64,000 nucleotides of DNA from Sphingobacteriaceae bacterium (GTDB taxonomy: Bacteria > Bacteroidota > Bacteroidia > UBA7662), in NCBI GenBank assembly GCA_013824115.1, contig PNNG01000026.1:62001-126000 (forward strand), in the 5' to 3' direction. This document shows positions 24,198 through 52,945 of this stretch, piece after piece. The notes under the pieces were generated by a model. That model saw only the letters and a program-made list of their open reading frames with translations. It had not been told where the DNA came from and searched no databases. Numbering within the stretch: position 1 is the first letter of the stretch; every line of letters starts with the position of its first letter. A program made the translations under genes and the position numbers.

Positions 24198-25361
24198 TTA
24201 CCAGCACCAACCCTTGTGGCGAATGATTTGGAGGGTCTCGAATAAGCTCAGCAAGAAAATACCCGGCCTGAACTCACCTACGCTGTTTGATGGGGTGACC
24301 ACATGGTGCGGGATGTTAGGGAAATCCTTCATCGCTTCGGTATTGCCTTTGCTCAAGTGCGGACTGTTGCTGTACTTAAATTCGAAGCTCGCCACAGGCT
24401 TGTTGTTTTGCACCAATAGCAAATCGAGTTCGGCACCTGCGGCCGTCCGGTAGAAATAAGGATGGACGGTAGGCTTGAGCATCGAAACGATTTGTTGGAT
24501 GCCAAATCCCTCCCAAGAGGCTCCTTTGATCACGTCTCCTTCCAAGGCATTGAGGGTATCAATACCAGCTAACAGGTGCAAGAGTCCCGAATCGCGGATA
24601 TACACCTTGGGACTTTTTACCAAACGTTTTTGCTGGTTGGTATGAAATGGCTGCAAAGTTCGGATCAAAAACATCTGCTCAAAAAACTGCAGGTAGTTTT
24701 TCACCGTGGGCAGACTCAGTTGTGTGGCTTGTGCCAAACTGCTGTAATTGATCAGTTGGCCATGCACTGAGGTCAGCAACTGTAAAAACTGCTCGAGCTG
24801 TTGGGGAGTGGTCCGCAATTCAGCCGTGCCCAATTCGCGTTGCACATAGCTTCGGCTAAAATCGAGCAGCCATTCAAAAGCATCTTCATCGGCAGGGGCC
24901 AGGTACGAAAGGGGATAGCCGCCACGCAACCAAAGATTATCTCTGCTTTCGGCGCCTGTTTCTAGCAGTTGGAAGGGGTGGAGCTCACGAAAGTGAATGC
25001 GGCCAGCCAGGTTTTCGGAACTGCTCACCAGCAATTGGTCGGAGGCAGAACCCAGCAACAAAAAGCGTCCCGGACGGCGGTCGGCATCCACCAAACTGCG
25101 CAGCACTGGGAACAGCTCAGGCATGCGCTGCACCTCGTCAATGACAATGCGTTTGTCGGCATTTTTCTCTAGAAAGAACTCCGGATCGCTCAAACGCAGC
25201 TGATCTGAAGGTCGTTCTAGATCAAGATACAGGCTGTTGGAAGGGTCTACCAGCTGCCTGGCGAGCGTGGTTTTACCCACCTGTCGCGGTCCCAACAAGG
25301 CCACCACTGGGTACTTTCCCAAAGCCTTTTGCAAGCCAGATATAGCCAGTCTTTCAATCAT
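24198..25361 (-). CDS. AAA ATPase with DUF4143 domain
   Basis: 387 aa. Walker A is LLGPRQVGKTTLARQ near residue 23, Walker B is RIVIDEVQRMPEL, and the sensor-1 block is LLLGSASDQLLVSSSENLAGR. A winged-helix-like stretch follows (SYSSLAQATQLSLPTVKNYL region). The C-terminal DUF4143 part contains a PD-(D/E)XK-like set, AELDLLLV followed 13 residues later by EFK. These proteins are common in accessory DNA, and their cellular role is not well established. The start codon lies 2 bases from the palindrome that forms the right end of cassette A. Confidence 0.9.
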   Translation of the reverse strand: MIERLAISGLQKALGKYPVVALLGPRQVGKTTLARQLVDPSNSLYLDLERPSDQLRLSDPEFFLEKNADKRIVIDEVQRMPELFPVLRSLVDADRRPGRFLLLGSASDQLLVSSSENLAGRIHFRELHPFQLLETGAESRDNLWLRGGYPLSYLAPADEDAFEWLLDFSRSYVQRELGTAELRTTPQQLEQFLQLLTSVHGQLINYSSLAQATQLSLPTVKNYLQFFEQMFLIRTLQPFHTNQQKRLVKSPKVYIRDSGLLHLLAGIDTLNALEGDVIKGASWEGFGIQQIVSMLKPTVHPYFYRTAAGAELDLLLVQNNKPVASFEFKYSNSPHLSKGNTEAMKDFPNIPHHVVTPSNSVGEFRPGIFLLSLFETLQIIRHKGWCW

Positions 25362-25362
25362 A

Positions 25363-25406
25363 ATCCTTGCAAATTTAAAGTGTACTTCGAAAATTGCAAG
25401 GATAAT
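25363..25406. repeat. Right palindrome of cassette A
   Basis: ATCCTTGCAAATTT (25363-25376) pairs with AAAATTGCAAGGAT (25390-25403) with one mismatch. It shares its central GTACTTCG and right arm with the left copy in direct orientation, and overlaps the promoter region of the ATPase gene. Confidence 0.85.
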
Positions 25407-25482
25407 TTGAAAGGTGCTACTTGATTATATGCTTGGAAGTTGGTAGTGCAGTGGGTTTTTATGCTTCCTTGATGAAATGTAT

Positions 25483-25521
25483 TCCCTGCAAAATTAAAAA
25501 ATAATTTTAAATTTGCAGGGA
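25483..25521. repeat. Left palindrome of cassette B
   Basis: TCCCTGCAAAATT (25483-25495) pairs with AAATTTGCAGGGA (25509-25521) with one mismatch. The last base is also the A of the ATG of the ATPase gene, so the palindrome replaces the normal leader. Confidence 0.8.
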
Positions 25522-26684
25522 TGATTGAAAGGGGCTTGGCAGAAAAGCTGCGGCAAAGACTTCAAAGATTTCCTGCTGTAGGTGTTTTGGGTGCACGTCA
25601 GGTGGGTAAAACCACGCTGGTTCGAGAACTTTTAGCGAGCCTGGCGCAGCCATTTGTCTTTATTGATGCCGAGCGCCCTTCTGACAGAAGGAAAATTGAG
25701 GTGAACCCGGAGTTCTTCTTGGAAATGCACCGCGATAAATTGGTGGTGATTGATGAAGTGCAACATTTGCCTGCTTTGTTTCCGCTTTTGCGGGCAGAAA
25801 TTGATGAAATACGCAAAGCAGGACGTTTTTTGCTATTGGGCTCTGGCAGTCCCGAACTTCTGCGCCAAAGCTCTGAATCCTTGGCTGGCCGCATCAGCTA
25901 CCTCGAACTAGGTCCTTTAAATCTGTTGGAAGTACCGACCGATTGGCAGCGCTTGTGGCTGTTAGGTGGTTTCCCTGAAATTTGGAAGGAATCGCTTAAC
26001 CAGTCGGATGCACATGAATGGCTACAAGCTTACATAGCCACCTTAATTGGACGCGATTTGCCCATGATGGGCTTGTCAGCGCGTAAACTCGATTTGTTCC
26101 GCTTTATTTCTATGTTGGCCTACCTCCAAGGGCAGCCCGAAAACGCTGCTGAACTGTCGCGTTCGTTAGGCGTGAGTCAGCCAACTGTGAAAAATGCCAT
26201 TGATTTTTTGGAACATGCTTTTTTGATCCAGCGCTTACCAGCCTGGCACACGAATTTGCCCAAGCGAATGGTCAAAGTACCGCGATTGTATTTTAGAGAT
26301 AGCGGCTTATTGCACCAACTCTTGCACATCTCCTCTTTAGACGAATTGCTTGCACATCCCATCGCAGGGCATTCGTTTGAGGGCTTTATCATCAGTCAGT
26401 GTAAAGCCTTGTTGCCAACCAACTGGGAGATGTATTTTTACCGCACCCAAGACGGTACCGAGGCGGATATTGTGCTGGTAAAAGCCAATAAAGTACGTTT
26501 TCTGGTCGAAGTTAAGCTAGGTGCTTCCGAAAAGGTTACTAAAAGCATGCGGCAGTCGATGTGCGACTTACAGCCCGACCGACTTTTGATTGTCGGCGCC
26601 AAGGAAGCCGATTTTATGCTCGACGAACAGATTCAAGTGCTAGGCCCTTCAGCATGGGTGACCTTTTTACACTCGTTGAAGTAA
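25521..26684 (+). CDS. AAA ATPase with DUF4143 domain (second copy)
   Basis: 387 aa, same length and layout as the gene at 24198 but clearly diverged. Walker A GARQVGKTTLVRE, Walker B LVVIDEVQHLPAL and LLLGSGSPELLRQSSESLAGR are intact. After a winged-helix-like block (ELSRSLGVSQPTVKNAI) comes DUF4143 with TEADIVLV, then 13 residues later EVK, the same PD-(D/E)XK-like spacing as in the first copy. The start codon is fused to the palindrome at its 5' side, and a matching palindrome lies after the stop. Function unproven; DUF4143 ATPases are scattered, often in multiple copies, in Bacteroidota. Confidence 0.9.
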   Translation: MIERGLAEKLRQRLQRFPAVGVLGARQVGKTTLVRELLASLAQPFVFIDAERPSDRRKIEVNPEFFLEMHRDKLVVIDEVQHLPALFPLLRAEIDEIRKAGRFLLLGSGSPELLRQSSESLAGRISYLELGPLNLLEVPTDWQRLWLLGGFPEIWKESLNQSDAHEWLQAYIATLIGRDLPMMGLSARKLDLFRFISMLAYLQGQPENAAELSRSLGVSQPTVKNAIDFLEHAFLIQRLPAWHTNLPKRMVKVPRLYFRDSGLLHQLLHISSLDELLAHPIAGHSFEGFIISQCKALLPTNWEMYFYRTQDGTEADIVLVKANKVRFLVEVKLGASEKVTKSMRQSMCDLQPDRLLIVGAKEADFMLDEQIQVLGPSAWVTFLHSLK

Positions 26685-27145: not shown

Positions 27146-27150
27146 CATCA

Positions 27151-27277
27151 GCTTATCCAGAAGGACGGAGGGAACGGCCCTACGAAGTCCTGGCAACCGC
27201 AGCGTGAGACACTTGCCTCGCGTTGGCCTGGTGCCAATTCCGCTGCCACTAACAAATACTTGAGGCAGGAGATGAGC
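27151..27277 (+). ncRNA. SAM-I riboswitch (S-box leader)
   Basis: The conserved elements appear in order: GCTTATCCAG, GGAGGGAACGGCCC, ACGAAGTCCTGGCAACC, GTGCCAATTCC, and a closing GATGAGC. P1 forms between GCTTATC (27151-27157) and GATGAGC (27271-27277). The aptamer binds S-adenosylmethionine and should turn metH off when SAM is plentiful. The match to the S-box consensus is unmistakable. Confidence 0.95.
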
Positions 27278-27343
27278 AGGCAGTAATCAGCTAAAAAGGG
27301 CTGTGTGCTACTTGCAAGTCGGTACCCGAATCCTTCGGGGATG

Positions 27344-31597: not shown

Positions 31598-31624
31598 AAC
31601 ACAGAGTTCACGGAGGCCACAGAG
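31597..31624. repeat. Left CACGGAG repeat
   Basis: AAACACAGAG followed by TTCACGGAGGCCACAGAG. It is inverted relative to the right-hand copy at 32157-32188, with three mismatches over about 25 bases. Confidence 0.8.
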
Positions 31625-31708
31625 AGTTTGACGACAAGTGTTTATCAAAATAAATTGCGGAATTTGAAATAAAGGAATCTGCGAAATTGCTGGTCTAAAA
31701 TTGAACTA

Positions 31709-32089
31709 ATGGACAAGCTTGTATGTGCAGAATTAACAGATAAGGTGCTAGGGGCAGCAATCAGTGTTCATCGGCAACTCGGACCGGGTTTACTGGAGAC
31801 TGCTTACAAGTTTGCCCTGAAGTATGAATTGGATGAAAGAAAAATAAAATATCAAACAGAAATACCAATCCCAATGATTTACAAGGGACAAAAGCTGGAT
31901 TGTGGTTATAGGGCTGATTTTTTGATTGAGGATCATTTGATTCTTGAGCTTAAAGCCGCCGAGCACATGCATAATCTTTTCAAAGCCCAGTTGATGACCT
32001 ATTTACGTTTGTCGGAAAGAAGGGTAGGACTGCTCATAAACTTTAACACTGAACTTTTAAAAAATGGAGTAATACGTTTAGTCATTTAG
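31709..32089 (+). CDS. GxxExxY family protein (PD-(D/E)XK-like)
   Basis: 126 aa, typical of the family. The signature GPGLLETAY is present near residue 30, and DFLIEDHLILELK gives the D-x9-E-x-K arrangement of PD-(D/E)XK nucleases. No signal or membrane segment. In Bacteroidota these ORFs are frequent orphans flanked by CACGGAG-type repeats, as here. The biochemical role is unproven; a nuclease is inferred from fold motifs. It lies between metH and metF without any evident link to methionine metabolism. Confidence 0.9.
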   Translation: MDKLVCAELTDKVLGAAISVHRQLGPGLLETAYKFALKYELDERKIKYQTEIPIPMIYKGQKLDCGYRADFLIEDHLILELKAAEHMHNLFKAQLMTYLRLSERRVGLLINFNTELLKNGVIRLVI

Positions 32090-32102
32090 AATTCCCCGTG
32101 CA

Positions 32103-32244
32103 CTCGGTGACCTCCGTGTTGAACCATCGCGAAGCCTCACAGCCATCTGAAGTTATCTCTGTAGCCTCCGTGACCTCCGTGTTTAACCCATAAGACCACC
32201 TCGCACACCCTTCTCCGTGACCTCCGTGACCTCCGTGTTTAACC
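32103..32244. repeat. Right CACGGAG repeat array
   Basis: Three tandem-related copies: 32103-32125, 32157-32188 and 32213-32244, each ending in CCTCCGTGTTKAACC. All are inverted relative to the left copy. The last ends 3 bases before the metF ATG and so forms its leader. Confidence 0.85.
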
Positions 32245-32247
32245 AAG

Positions 32248-33201
32248 ATGAAAATTACAGAACACATAAAATCAGCAACCAATACCCTCTTTTCGTTTGA
32301 AATCCTTCCTCCGTTAAAAGGGCAAGACATCAAGCAGATTTACGCCGGCATTGAGCCCTTGATGGAGTTCAATCCGCCCTTCATTGATGTGACCTACCAC
32401 CGTGAGGAGTTCATCATGAAACCCGTCTCCGATGGTACTTTCAGGCGCATCACCACCCGCAAACGTCCAGGAACGGTAGCCATTTGTGCGGCCATTATGA
32501 ACAAATTTAAGGTCGATGCTGTGCCGCACCTCATTTGTGGGGGCTTCAACCGCGAAGAGACCGAAAATGCCCTCATCGACCTGCACTTTTTGGGCATCGA
32601 CAATGTATTGGTATTGCGAGGCGATAATCTCAAGCACGAAACGGTATTCACTCCTGAGCCTGATGGTAATGCCAATGCCTTGGAACTTTTGTTGCAGGTG
32701 AAAGAAATGAACAATGGCATTTACCTCGATGAAGACCTTGTGAATCCGGTGGCAACCGATTTTTGCATTGGCGTAGCAGGTTATCCCGAAAAGCACCAGG
32801 ATGCCCCCAATTTGAAGTCGGATTTGCAATGGCTGAAAAAAAAGGTAGATGCTGGTGCCGAGTTCATTACCACGCAGATGTTCTTCGATAACAAGGCCTA
32901 TTTCGACTTTTTGGAAAAGTGCAAGAAACTGAATATCGACATTCCAATCATTCCGGGCATCAAGCCCATAGCAACCAAAAAGCAGCTAACGGTTTTGCCC
33001 AAAATATTTCACATTGACATTCCTGAAGCGCTTTCGGATGCTGTTGAAAAGGCCAAAGACGACAAGCAAGTGAAGGAAATAGGCATTGAATGGGCCATTC
33101 AGCAATGCAAAGAGCTCAAGGCTGCTGGCGTACCCGTATTGCATTTTTACACCATGGGTCGCAGTGAAGCCACCAAAGCTATTGCACAGCAAGTGTTTTG
33201 A
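32248..33201 (+). CDS. metF: 5,10-methylenetetrahydrofolate reductase
   Basis: 317 aa. Reduces methylene-THF to methyl-THF, the methyl donor for MetH, using FAD. The N-terminal LFSFEILPPLKG carries the catalytic Glu; VLVLRGD, FITTQMFFDNKAYF and IPIIPGIKPI are family signatures. Length is normal for a bacterial MetF. It follows metH in the same direction, as expected for a methionine unit, but the GxxExxY cassette now separates them and supplies the bases just before the start. A small membrane-protein gene starts 14 bases after its stop. Confidence 0.97.
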   Translation: MKITEHIKSATNTLFSFEILPPLKGQDIKQIYAGIEPLMEFNPPFIDVTYHREEFIMKPVSDGTFRRITTRKRPGTVAICAAIMNKFKVDAVPHLICGGFNREETENALIDLHFLGIDNVLVLRGDNLKHETVFTPEPDGNANALELLLQVKEMNNGIYLDEDLVNPVATDFCIGVAGYPEKHQDAPNLKSDLQWLKKKVDAGAEFITTQMFFDNKAYFDFLEKCKKLNIDIPIIPGIKPIATKKQLTVLPKIFHIDIPEALSDAVEKAKDDKQVKEIGIEWAIQQCKELKAAGVPVLHFYTMGRSEATKAIAQQVF

Positions 33202-37733: not shown

Positions 37734-39470
37734 GTGACTGAGAAAAAACAACGTGGTCGCCCCAAAGCACCAGCTGCTGCGGAAGTAGCCCCCGCCGAAG
37801 AATCGGCAACCGCAAAGCGTCGCGGCCGTCCCAAAAAAGAGGAAACCGCCCGTCCCGAATTATTTGATGCTGCAACCGCTGCTTTCGATGCCGAAGTGAG
37901 TTACGAGCCCGTAGCCGACGAGCCTGAAGTGCCCGTAATGCCCGCAGCCGAAGCCACTACAGCATCGGAAGTTGAAGCCGCAGAAACCAACGAAGCACCT
38001 GCTCCGACTGAGTCAAACGAACAGCGCCCACCATTCGAACGACGCAACCGCGAGTTCAGAGAGCGCGACAACCGTGAGCGTGAACCTCGTGAGCATAGAG
38101 AAAACAGAGAAGTCCGAGAACAACGTGAACCGCGAGAAAACCGCGAACTACGTGAACCACGCGAAGCGCGTGAGCCCCGCGAAGGCCGCGAAAACCGCGA
38201 AGCCAGAGAAGGACGAGAAGTTCGTGAAAACCGCGAACCTCGCGAAAACCGGGAACCTCGCGAAAACCGGGAACCTCGCGAAAACCGCGATAATCGCCGT
38301 GAATTCCGCGAAAACCGCGAACAAAACCCTCGTCCCGAACGCCAACAATACGCCTTCGAAAACATTGTTAGCCACGAAGGGGTACTCGAAATGATGCCAG
38401 ATGGTTATGGTTTCTTGCGCTCGGCCGATTACCACTACCTCTCTTCACCCGATGACGTGTATGTGGCTCCACACCAAATCAAATCATACAGCCTCAAAAC
38501 CGGCGATACAGTGAAAGGCAATGTACGTCCACCCAAAGAAGGCGAGAAGTACTTTGCGCTTACCCGCATTGAGTCGATCAATGGCCTTACCCCGCAAGAA
38601 ATTCGCGACCGGGTGCCTTTCGACTTCCTTACACCCCTGTTTCCCAACGAGCGGCTCAAGCTGAGCAATAGGCCCGAGAACCTGAGCATGCGCATCATGG
38701 ACCTCTTTACACCCATCGGAAAAGGACAACGCGGACTCATTGTGGCCCAGCCTAAAACCGGTAAGACCTTCTTGCTGAAAGATGTGGCGAACGCCATTGC
38801 GCACAACCACCCCGAAGTGTACCTGATTATCCTCCTTATCGACGAGCGCCCCGAAGAAGTAACAGATATGGCTCGCTCGGTAAAGGCCGAAGTGGTGGCC
38901 TCTACCTTCGATGAGCCCGCTGACCGTCACGTAAAAGTGGCCAACATCGTACTTGAAAAAGCCAAGCGCCTGGTAGAATGCGGTCACGATGTGGTGATTT
39001 TACTCGACTCGATTACCCGCTTAGCCCGCGCCTACAATACAGTGCAGCCGGCATCCGGTAAAATCCTGTCGGGTGGTGTAGATGCTAACGCCCTCCACAA
39101 ACCGAAGCGCTTCTTTGGAGCTGCCCGCAAAATCGAAAATGGCGGATCACTTACCATTTTGGCAACCGCCCTCATCGACACCGGTTCAAAAATGGACGAA
39201 GTCATCTTCGAAGAATTTAAGGGTACCGGCAACATGGAATTGCAGCTCGACCGCAAATTGTCGAACAAGCGCATCTATCCGGCCATCGATGTGGTGGCGT
39301 CGAGCACCCGCCGCGAAGACCTGTTGCTTGACCGCGATGAGTTGAAGAAAATGTACATCCTCCGCAATCACCTTTCAGACATGACTTCACAGGAATCGAT
39401 GGAGCTGCTGCTGCAAAACATGCGCGGCACTTTTTCCAACGAAGAATTCCTGATGTCGATGAACCATTAA
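37734..39470 (+). CDS. rho: Transcription termination factor Rho
   Basis: 578 aa against about 420 for E. coli Rho. RNA-dependent ATPase that ends transcription. The N-terminal 200 residues are an extra region: AT-hook-like RGRPK motifs at the very start, an acidic-Ala section, then a long NRE/PRE/REx repeat tract (about 110-200). Then come the RNA-binding domain ([15 protein letters not shown]), Walker A AQPKTGKT, Walker [17 protein letters not shown] and the R-loop [12 protein letters not shown]-type block. Start is GTG at 37734. Long disordered N-terminal insertions are known in Bacteroidota Rho and are thought to influence RNA binding or condensation. Single gene with its own terminator. 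Confidence 0.97.
38227..38290 (+). repeat. 18-bp tandem repeat in the rho insertion
   Basis: Three and a half copies of an 18-bp unit (38227, 38245, 38263, 38281) encode NREPRE repeats. The units differ only by a C/G change, showing recent slippage. Confidence 0.9.
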
Positions 39471-48920: not shown

Positions 48921-49080
48921 GGGTTGGTTTTTTAGGGTTTGTTGTTGCTGTTGGTTTCGGTGGTTGGGTTGGGTTGGGTTGAGAACCGTTACGAATAGCA
49001 GACGCACAAAGGTAGGCAGAGGTTGCATGGGGGGTAGTTAAATGGATGTTAAGGGGTGCTAAGGATATGTTAAAGTGGGT

Positions 49081-49166
49081 GGCCCTAGCGGACCTGTGGT
49101 TGGCCTAATGGCCTGTGGTTGGTCCTAGCGGACCTGTGGTTGCGCTTCGCACTGTGTTTTGCAGTG
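49081..49166. repeat. Left hairpin array (TGTGGTT units)
   Basis: Units at 49081, 49102, 49121 and 49142. The stems differ but pair internally: GGTCC/GGACC, GGCC/GGCC and TGCG/CGCA. The heptamer TGTGGTT is constant in the first three. The first unit has one mismatch in its stem. A CACTG/CAGTG hairpin ends the array. Confidence 0.85.
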
Positions 49167-49180
49167 TAGTATCGTACTAT

Positions 49181-49579
49181 TCAGTTTCTCGCAGTTGAAG
49201 TGCTGGTGCTTTCAGATTCTTTTTTAATCAGATAGGCGGTGAATCGCTCAATCTTATTGACTACCTGATCGAGTTCAAGTCGGAGTTCCACGTATTTGTC
49301 TTTGTTGATGTATCCGAGGTCATGCGCGCCTATGATATGGTCTAAAACTTCAAGACAGCTGGCGTAAGCCATGTTGACAAAGCGTACTTTGTCCTTAAAA
49401 CCCAATCTGCCCGCACCTTCTGCTAAATTGGCAGTGATGGAACTTGCTGCTCGTTCTATTTGGCTTGTAAGTCCAAATTTTTCCGAAGGTGGAAAGGTTT
49501 TACTCACTTGGTAAATTGACCGTCTGAAGGCCCGGGCTAACTTCCATGCTTCTAGTTTTTCAAAGAGATATTCTCGCAT
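49181..49579 (-). CDS. Four-helix-bundle protein (23S rRNA IVS/S23 family)
   Basis: 132 aa. Matches the four-helix-bundle family found in 23S rRNA intervening sequences and as free-standing ORFs: FEKLEAWKLARAF at the start, FGLTSQIERAASSITANLAEGAGR in the second helix, and SCLEVLDHIIGAHDLGYI. The family includes bAvd, the accessory protein of diversity-generating retroelements, but no reverse transcriptase or variable repeats are seen here. The protein is a pentameric-type nucleic-acid-binding candidate (inference). It is flanked by inverted hairpin arrays. Confidence 0.93.
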   Translation of the reverse strand: MREYLFEKLEAWKLARAFRRSIYQVSKTFPPSEKFGLTSQIERAASSITANLAEGAGRLGFKDKVRFVNMAYASCLEVLDHIIGAHDLGYINKDKYVELRLELDQVVNKIERFTAYLIKKESESTSTSTARN

Positions 49580-49713
49580 ACAAGCATCTTTTCTTTAAAT
49601 TTCGATAACCAGATAATATCAGACAAGTGTTTATCGAGTTTTCTAAAAAAGATGCGCAGAAAGCATAAGTTGCTGACTTAGATTGCCGTATAATGGAAAT
49701 ATCACCCGAAGTC

Positions 49714-49823
49714 ACCCACAGACCGACAGGTCAACTACTTGCCACAGTCATCGGCGCATTCACAGCCGCAGGCAACCACAGTACCGCTACTGCGGAACAC
49801 CCACAGGCCAGAGGCCACCCACA
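49714..49823. repeat. Right hairpin array (ACCCACA units)
   Basis: Hairpins GACC/GGTC (loop GACA, from 49721), GCC/GGC (from 49765), CCGC/GCGG (loop TACT, from 49784) and GGCC/GGCC (loop AGA, from 49806), each preceded by a CACA-ending heptamer such as ACCCACA. These are the left units inverted. Confidence 0.8.
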
Positions 49824-50047
49824 TTTAATGCATTGCAATTCCGAAAATCACCTATATTAGCCCCATGCTTCTGCAGCAACATACCAACGTTTCCTTCGGC
49901 AATGTGATGTCCCTCGATGGCATTTATGCCCGCTGGTGCCGAATGCAGGCCTGATAGCTACAGGCCCAAATTGCTGCGCGTTCCCCCCAACTGAGGGTTC
50001 AAATCGGTTGAAAATCAATTATTTTTCATTTATTAATCATCACTAAC
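49824..50047. other. Leader region upstream of the arginine operon
   Basis: 224 bases with no clear gene. It holds a possible 29-aa ORF (ATG 49865 to TGA 49954, with Arg codons near its end) whose stop overlaps a hairpin (GGCCTG 49948-49953 with CAGGCC 49961-49966), then an AT-rich inverted repeat at 50009-50028. Nothing else was recognised. Confidence 0.5.
50009..50028. promoter_or_regulatory. Possible ARG box
   Basis: TGAAAA and TTTTCA flank an 8-base AT-rich centre, 20 bases upstream of the first gene of the arginine operon. Similar in layout to ArgR sites; no ArgR gene is in the window. Confidence 0.35.
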
Positions 50048-52940: not shown

Positions 52941-52945
52941 TCACC

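Follow-up and report, generated by a model that had tools for sequence, protein, structure and literature searches.

A 23S intervening-sequence protein gene between inverted repeat arrays in a Sphingobacteriaceae genome: a possible member of a common class of insertion cassettes

Introduction

A 64,000-nucleotide stretch of DNA from a Sphingobacteriaceae bacterium (GenBank assembly GCA_013824115.1, contig PNNG01000026.1, positions 62,001 to 126,000; hereafter the window) carries a small gene enclosed by two arrays of short tags and hairpins that run in opposite directions. Its product belongs to the protein family known from 23S rRNA intervening sequences (IVSs), here called intervening-sequence proteins (IVPs). 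The function and origin of 23S IVSs and of the S23/IVP protein are without consensus (PMC4990558). The locus raises the question of what such arrays do around an IVP gene, and whether they act as RNA or as DNA. The initial annotation, made from the letters of the window, saw in it a free-living relative of an IVS under selection for structure. Comparison with other IVP loci leads us to a different emphasis, namely that the locus is a member of a very common class of promoterless single-gene insertion cassettes whose arms act on DNA, a reading to which we give about an even chance of being correct. We found no description of the inverted-array architecture of IVP genes in the open-access literature, a search that did not extend to subscription journals or preprints.

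Results and discussion

The gene and its two arrays

The locus occupies window positions 49074-49823, and its features are as follows.

49181..49579, minus strand: IVP gene, 132-amino-acid four-helix-bundle protein, PF05635 / TIGR02436 (23S rRNA intervening-sequence protein; Pfam and NCBIfam)
49074..49150, plus strand: left array, the 3' arm on the sense strand of the gene; four tags (AGTGGGT and three times TGTGGTT), each followed by a short hairpin
49714..49823, minus strand: right array, the 5' arm on the sense strand of the gene; TGTGGGT/TGTGGTT tags and hairpins in alternation, the inverse of the left array
49072..49084, plus strand: left outer end, AAAGTGGGTGGCC, terminal inverted repeat with 49813-49825 (repeat search, 13 nt, 92% complementary)
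49813..49825, minus strand: right outer end, GGCCACCCACATT, pairing with 49072-49084
49584..49655, minus strand: leader stem-loop that immediately precedes the IVP start codon, with 79% complementarity between its 28-nt arms (repeat search)

The family proposed for the open reading frame (ORF) in the initial annotation proved right. The product matches PF05635 with an E value of 2.7e-32 (111.6 bits, curated cut-off 33.8) and TIGR02436 of NCBIfam with 1.1e-28 (99.6 bits, curated cut-off 24). The sole solved relative found by sequence is 2gsc, XCC0516 (E 8.4e-16, phmmer). The protein is basic, with an isoelectric point of 9.2 (family median 8.0).

The arrays were found where the initial annotation had placed them, and they are inverted around the gene. 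On the plus strand the left array reads AGTGGGT-GGCCCTAGCGGACC-TGTGGTT-GGCCTAATGGCC-TGTGGTT-GGTCCTAGCGGACC-TGTGGTT-GCGCTTCGC (49074-49150; period 21, 3.3 copies by Tandem Repeats Finder), and the right array reads ACCCACA-GACCGACAGGTC-...CCACA-GTCATCGGCGCAT-TCACA-GCCGCAGGC-AACCACA-GTACCGCTACTGCGGAAC-ACCCACA-GGCCAGAGGCC-ACCCACA (49714-49823). Spacers of 9-18 nt separate the seven-base tags, which do not form the constant heptamer once described, as TGTGGTT, TGTGGGT, AGTGGGT and degenerate forms occur. Stems that change while their pairing is kept had also been claimed. The pairing is evident, the nine inter-tag spacers being on average 88% self-complementary against 36% after shuffling, with none of 20,000 shuffle sets as high, but nine units are too few to prove compensation alone. 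The list of stems needs two corrections: the first left stem contains a mismatch (GGCCC/GGACC), and the right spacer GTCATCGGCGCAT forms no hairpin. When folded as single strands, two of four cases were significant (z -2.8 and -3.1) and the remaining two were weaker.

To score the similarity of the two flanks, 350 nt of 5' flank were aligned locally to the 3' flank in reverse complement, with start codons set by rule. The window locus scores 22.5 in inverted and 7.5 in direct orientation, and thus lies above the 95th percentile of comparisons between different loci (12.0). In the congener G005, homology to the right flank begins at window position 49838, just outside the outer end, and a different gene lies on the left.

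Repeats and a second copy in the same genome

The pattern TGTGGKT-N5-16-TGTGGKT occurs eight times in the 2.84-Mb genome (three times for the reversed control pattern), and palindromic spacers are confined to the three hits at the window locus. The arrays are therefore private to this locus. The initial annotation had named ordinary intergenic repeats, present everywhere and unconnected with the ORF, as the outcome that would refute it; that outcome did not occur, and searches for the pattern across the genome led us to reject dispersed repeats.

A single further IVP gene, L002, is present in the genome; it contains one in-frame stop and is likewise enclosed by inverted arrays. Read in its sense direction, GCTGGGA-type tags with hairpins such as GCACTTCGTGC occur on the 5' side and 14-nt units of the TCCCCAGCGAAGCA type on the 3' side. 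A leader, GCATCTTTTTT, similar to the stem-loop at 49584-49655, precedes this second gene. A third case of tag plus hairpin is found in a Flavobacteriales genome (L284), with a GTTTACN tag and the stems GCC/GGC and CACC/GGTG. Since L002 and L284 show it too, the tag-plus-hairpin form is a recurrent variant. It is nonetheless a minority variant, the general unit being a plain 7-nt repeat.

Inverted seven-base arrays are general at IVP loci

For the survey we used 122 IVP loci whose flanks were complete, drawn from the class to which the window genome belongs; in this class 188 of 247 genomes sampled have IVP genes. The mean inverted flank match was 16.95, compared with 9.44 between different loci and 10.8 in direct orientation, and none of 10,000 label permutations exceeded 10.24. 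The cross-locus 95th percentile was exceeded by 84 of the 122 loci in inverted and by 18 in direct orientation. A direct-repeat or target-duplication structure is ruled out, the direct orientation being near background.

The arms, with a median length of 32 nt, are built on a period of seven. Their self-identity is 0.48, 0.47, 0.42 and 0.37 at lags of 7, 14, 21 and 28, and about 0.27 at most other lags; the best lag is 7 in 104 of 126 arms. Of the 122 genes, 88 have a period-7 array no more than 350 nt away. These arrays are specific to the surroundings of the gene: they take up 5.7% and 9.6% of the first 100 nt to either side, reach background level by about 300 nt and mostly cover 0-0.4% beyond. 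No other period clusters likewise around IVP genes, though period 8 is found in 15 loci. The arms also have a polarity, the strand reading into the gene having more G than C in 59 of the 61 loci with a bias.

The sequence of the arms is a matter of the single locus. The heptamer consensus across loci is weak (WNWWAGW, 2.97 bits; 2.39 for permuted heptamers), and the arms of different IVP loci within one genome are barely alike, scoring 9.8 against 9.4 for others, a figure raised by one neighbouring pair. This rules out arrays that would be a dialect common to all IVP genes of a genome. The IVP protein itself is under purifying selection, the ratio of nonsynonymous to synonymous substitution rates (dN/dS) being 0.05-0.14 in eleven pairs, several of them with saturated dS. 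The Chitinophagaceae genome G266, the source of locus L066, has 28 IVP matches; several are broken or contain stops, so IVP genes decay as well as persist.

The same architecture extends to other phyla. In Verrucomicrobiota, sampled as the phylum of a Pedosphaera genome, IVP genes are present in 100 of 145 genomes. There 20 of 28 loci exceed the cross-locus 95th percentile, with period 7 or 8 and a polarity of 12 to 2. In a genome of the candidate phylum Levyibacteriota repeat arms can be seen by eye, and one of three loci is clearly above background by score (L292, 15.5).

Insertion at operon junctions

IVP loci prefer operon junctions. Of 121 loci, 104 are bordered on both sides by genes that run in the direction of the IVP gene, the gaps having medians of 61 and 49 nt. 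Certain sites are occupied repeatedly: fadB-fadA in 17 loci, the region downstream of fadA in 9, sufB-sufC in 9 and argC-argD in 4.

Among 90 genomes compared for the fadB-fadA junction, both genes could be placed in 76. Many gaps are 2-30 nt long (5 nt in the window genome, 10 nt in a congener), and 15 hold an IVP gene, always in sense (15/15). In two genomes with 95% identical FadA the gap is 481 nt with a cassette in one and 3 nt in the other. Several gaps of 80-135 nt contain an inverted array but no gene (for example L254 and L261, with period 7); L249 is another junction with a gene-less inverted 7-nt array. Another 21 long gaps had no IVP match by profile; IVP-less gaps of about 600-960 nt are found, for example, in L212, L216-L218, L223, L230 and L232.

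The window itself has one junction without an insert where four other genomes carry an IVP cassette:

52941..52945, plus strand: argC-argD gap, 5 nt

In those four genomes the cassette begins right behind the stop codon and ends immediately ahead of the start codon. The repeat differs in each of them, and in each the two sides match.

In a tree of the IVP proteins, sufBC, argCD and three further recurrent sites each form one clade among the grouped rows, which indicates inheritance at the site; the two fad sites do not. The arms nevertheless change together at recurrent sites. Over all sites, the arms of a locus match each other at 16.2 and match those of relatives at the same site at 10.5; at sufBC the values are 19.5 and 10.8, in nine of nine loci. 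The advantage was not seen at two small sites (lpd and s40). As own arms match better than those of relatives, the sequence of an arm is free and the matching is kept.

A second gene family with arrays of its own

The initial annotation raised the question whether the units flank four-helix-bundle ORFs only. Those of the locus are tied to the IVP ORF, but array-flanked cassettes are not limited to this fold, because genes of the PDDEXK_3 (GxxExxY) family carry similar arrays. One of them lies in the window:

31709..32089, plus strand: PDDEXK_3 (GxxExxY) gene, nuclease fold, Pfam E 7.2e-39

It has inverted CACAGAG / CTCCGTG arrays on both sides (31600-32250), and 17 of 27 PDDEXK_3 loci in the class have inverted arms. 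Like the IVP cassettes, these are small genes between inverted arrays of short repeats; unlike them, they have a CACAGAK motif in common between genomes and a spacing of about 8-10 nt instead of 7. The grammar of the array thus goes with the gene family. More than anything else, this suggests that the protein and its arrays act in concert.

When 45 genes of the window were used as controls, the inverted score was high in only four: the IVP gene, the PDDEXK_3 gene and both genes of a divergent DUF4143 pair. The pair consists of two AAA_14/DUF4143 genes (24198-26684) with similar inverted sequence around their starts.

Proposed explanation

We infer from the wobble test described below, from arms that are private yet matched and from the family-specific grammar that the arms would be cassette ends acting on DNA. 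In these loci an IVP/Avd-like four-helix-bundle gene lies between two inverted arrays, mostly set out on a seven-base ruler; in the two copies of the window genome the unit is a tag plus a mini-hairpin. The arms may base-pair, in single-stranded or extruded DNA, or may be brought together by an oligomeric IVP protein. Such an oligomer would read the seven-base spacing and the strand polarity and no fixed sequence, so that the ends would stay alike while their sequence drifts. Judging from its context, the cassette apparently has no promoter of its own, and transcription together with the host operon would supply its expression. Within 23S rRNA such arms would make up a stem that RNase III removes; 23S IVSs would therefore be such cassettes sited in rRNA.

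Several points weigh against this explanation. The cassette encodes neither a nuclease nor a transposase, and no movement was seen among the IVP copies compared. Copies within one genome have a median identity of 40%, only the neighbouring pair L022/L026 being near-identical, which rules out recent transposition within genomes. As within-genome copies are divergent and several sites look vertically inherited, mobility is rare or ancient. Inverted repeats that undergo gene conversion or template switching could likewise end up with matched arms that have no function. The loci surveyed were the best-scoring matches to the family, and some subfamilies may be favoured. At the window locus the 5' neighbour of the IVP gene is a divergent GNAT gene, which places the locus outside the co-directional context, and a two-sided empty site did not turn up for it. 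The window locus is hence atypical twice, in its neighbour and in having hairpin spacers in place of plain 7-mers.

Alternatives

The arms might instead be selected as RNA. In the 23S IVS of Coxiella burnetii an S23p ORF is enclosed by a 28-bp terminal stem that serves as an RNase III target, and just upstream of the ORF the heptamer GACAGAT stands in tandem, in two or three copies depending on the strain (PMC4990558). IVP cassettes could likewise pair in the operon transcript, so that RNase III would cut the stem and free the IVP message. Sense insertion inside operons, median arms of 32 nt that suit RNase III and the published excision of the Coxiella IVS (PMC4990558) all agree with such processing. 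A helix in sense RNA should tolerate G:T/T:G mismatches, though, and at the mismatched positions of 85 arm pairs these number 118 compared with 135 for A:C/C:A (28 loci against 33). Selection on RNA pairing finds no support in this wobble test, and a DNA-level process is favoured because the mismatches show no G:U enrichment; moreover, the window locus lies outside an operon. We thus consider an RNA processing cassette improbable as the basic explanation, although processing could still occur as a consequence of a DNA-level process. The earlier idea of a free-living relative of an IVS stands with respect to anatomy, an IVP gene between complementary arms as in Coxiella, and is not supported with respect to selection on RNA structure. 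Arrays might alternatively be repeated binding sites used by the IVP protein or a different factor to control its own operon, as could be suggested by arrays that directly abut stop and start codons in operons and by purifying selection on the gene. If the regulator were sequence-specific, its sites should be conserved from one locus to the next, whereas only the weak WNWWAGW is common to them (2.97 against 2.39 bits), and the inverted second arm and the gene-less copies are left without explanation; regulation seems to us quite unlikely.

A somewhat better case, if still a weaker one than that for RNA processing, can be made for a neutral by-product, in which short inverted repeats beside the gene grow by slippage and are kept alike by template switching or gene conversion, while arrays and protein do not interact. 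Arms that change together at fixed sites, the strain-variable heptamer number of Coxiella (PMC4990558) and array-only junctions are consistent with it. Arrays that crowd around IVP genes and reach background within 300 nt, and an arm polarity of 59 to 2, are not; nor is a neutral process expected to track the gene family, as period 7 does for IVP, and about 8-10 with CACAGAK for PDDEXK_3. Least likely of all, in our judgement, is that the units are repetitive extragenic palindromic (REP) elements which the genome's own Y1 transposases mobilise in trans. Three Y1_Tnp genes resembling REP-associated tyrosine transposases (RAYTs) are present (L003, L004 and L005, at G000:C40, C35 and C4), each amid tagged hairpin arrays; those of L003 carry GGGTAGCCCCGTCAGGGGC units. 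Published REPs have GTAG/GTGG tags 5' of the hairpin (PMC6006769), and the window tags TGTGGTT/TGTGGGT contain GTGG. REP elements with their RAYT gene (REPtrons) further resemble the window cassette in being a single gene flanked by inverted tagged hairpin repeats. The differences are that the gene is an IVP and not a Y1_Tnp gene, that most IVP arrays consist of 7-mers without hairpins, that arms of different IVP loci in one genome are barely alike (9.8 against 9.4) and that the units are private to the window locus and not dispersed. We rejected REPs of the resident RAYT genes, as the genome-wide pattern search places the unit array at the window locus only.

Relation to known systems

Intergenic arrays of heptanucleotides have precedents, among them the short tandemly repeated repetitive (STRR) sequences of cyanobacteria. 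The TAACTGA repeats of Beggiatoaceae are also intergenic tandem units of seven bases; they have one sequence with many sets per genome, and IVP genes are unmentioned in their description (PMC4679880). IVP arrays differ in having a sequence particular to the locus and a counterpart in inverted orientation.

A close likeness is to the 23S IVSs of Coxiella burnetii (helix 45) and Leptospira, which have a homologous protein and complementary ends enclosing the ORF, and in Coxiella also tandem heptamers beside it (PMC4990558). The window element, in contrast, lies in a protein-gene region and not in a 23S rRNA gene, its arms are repeat arrays, and IVP cassettes show no sign of selection on RNA pairing. 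The IVP also belongs to the same superfamily as Avd, the accessory protein of diversity-generating retroelements. Both are placed in one CDD family, cd16375, and the structures 4DWL and 2GSC have been reported as homologous (PMC10053308).

Other features of the window

No rRNA was found in the window. The only Rfam match is a SAM riboswitch at 27150-27278 (RF00162, 71.7 bits), and no known RNA family matches the IVP locus. A tandem repeat array with units of 9, 18, 27 and 54 nt (GAAAACCGC type) is located at 38107-38321.

Implications

Tentatively, and with less confidence than for the window locus itself, we propose that these loci belong to an extensive class of cassettes, selfish or domesticated, that has gone unrecognised in Bacteroidota, in Verrucomicrobiota and probably also in candidate phyla. 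In such cassettes a small protein would keep two inverted DNA arrays alike by means of a seven-base ruler and not of a sequence; each family, IVP or GxxExxY nuclease, would have its own grammar, and 23S IVSs would represent one of the landing sites. Inserts of this kind stand between the genes of many conserved operons. The cassette anatomy ties IVP loci to the unexplained intervening sequences of 23S rRNA, and the arms offer a concrete candidate substrate for a very common protein of unknown function, with 7-nt spacing and self-matching ends as the prediction.
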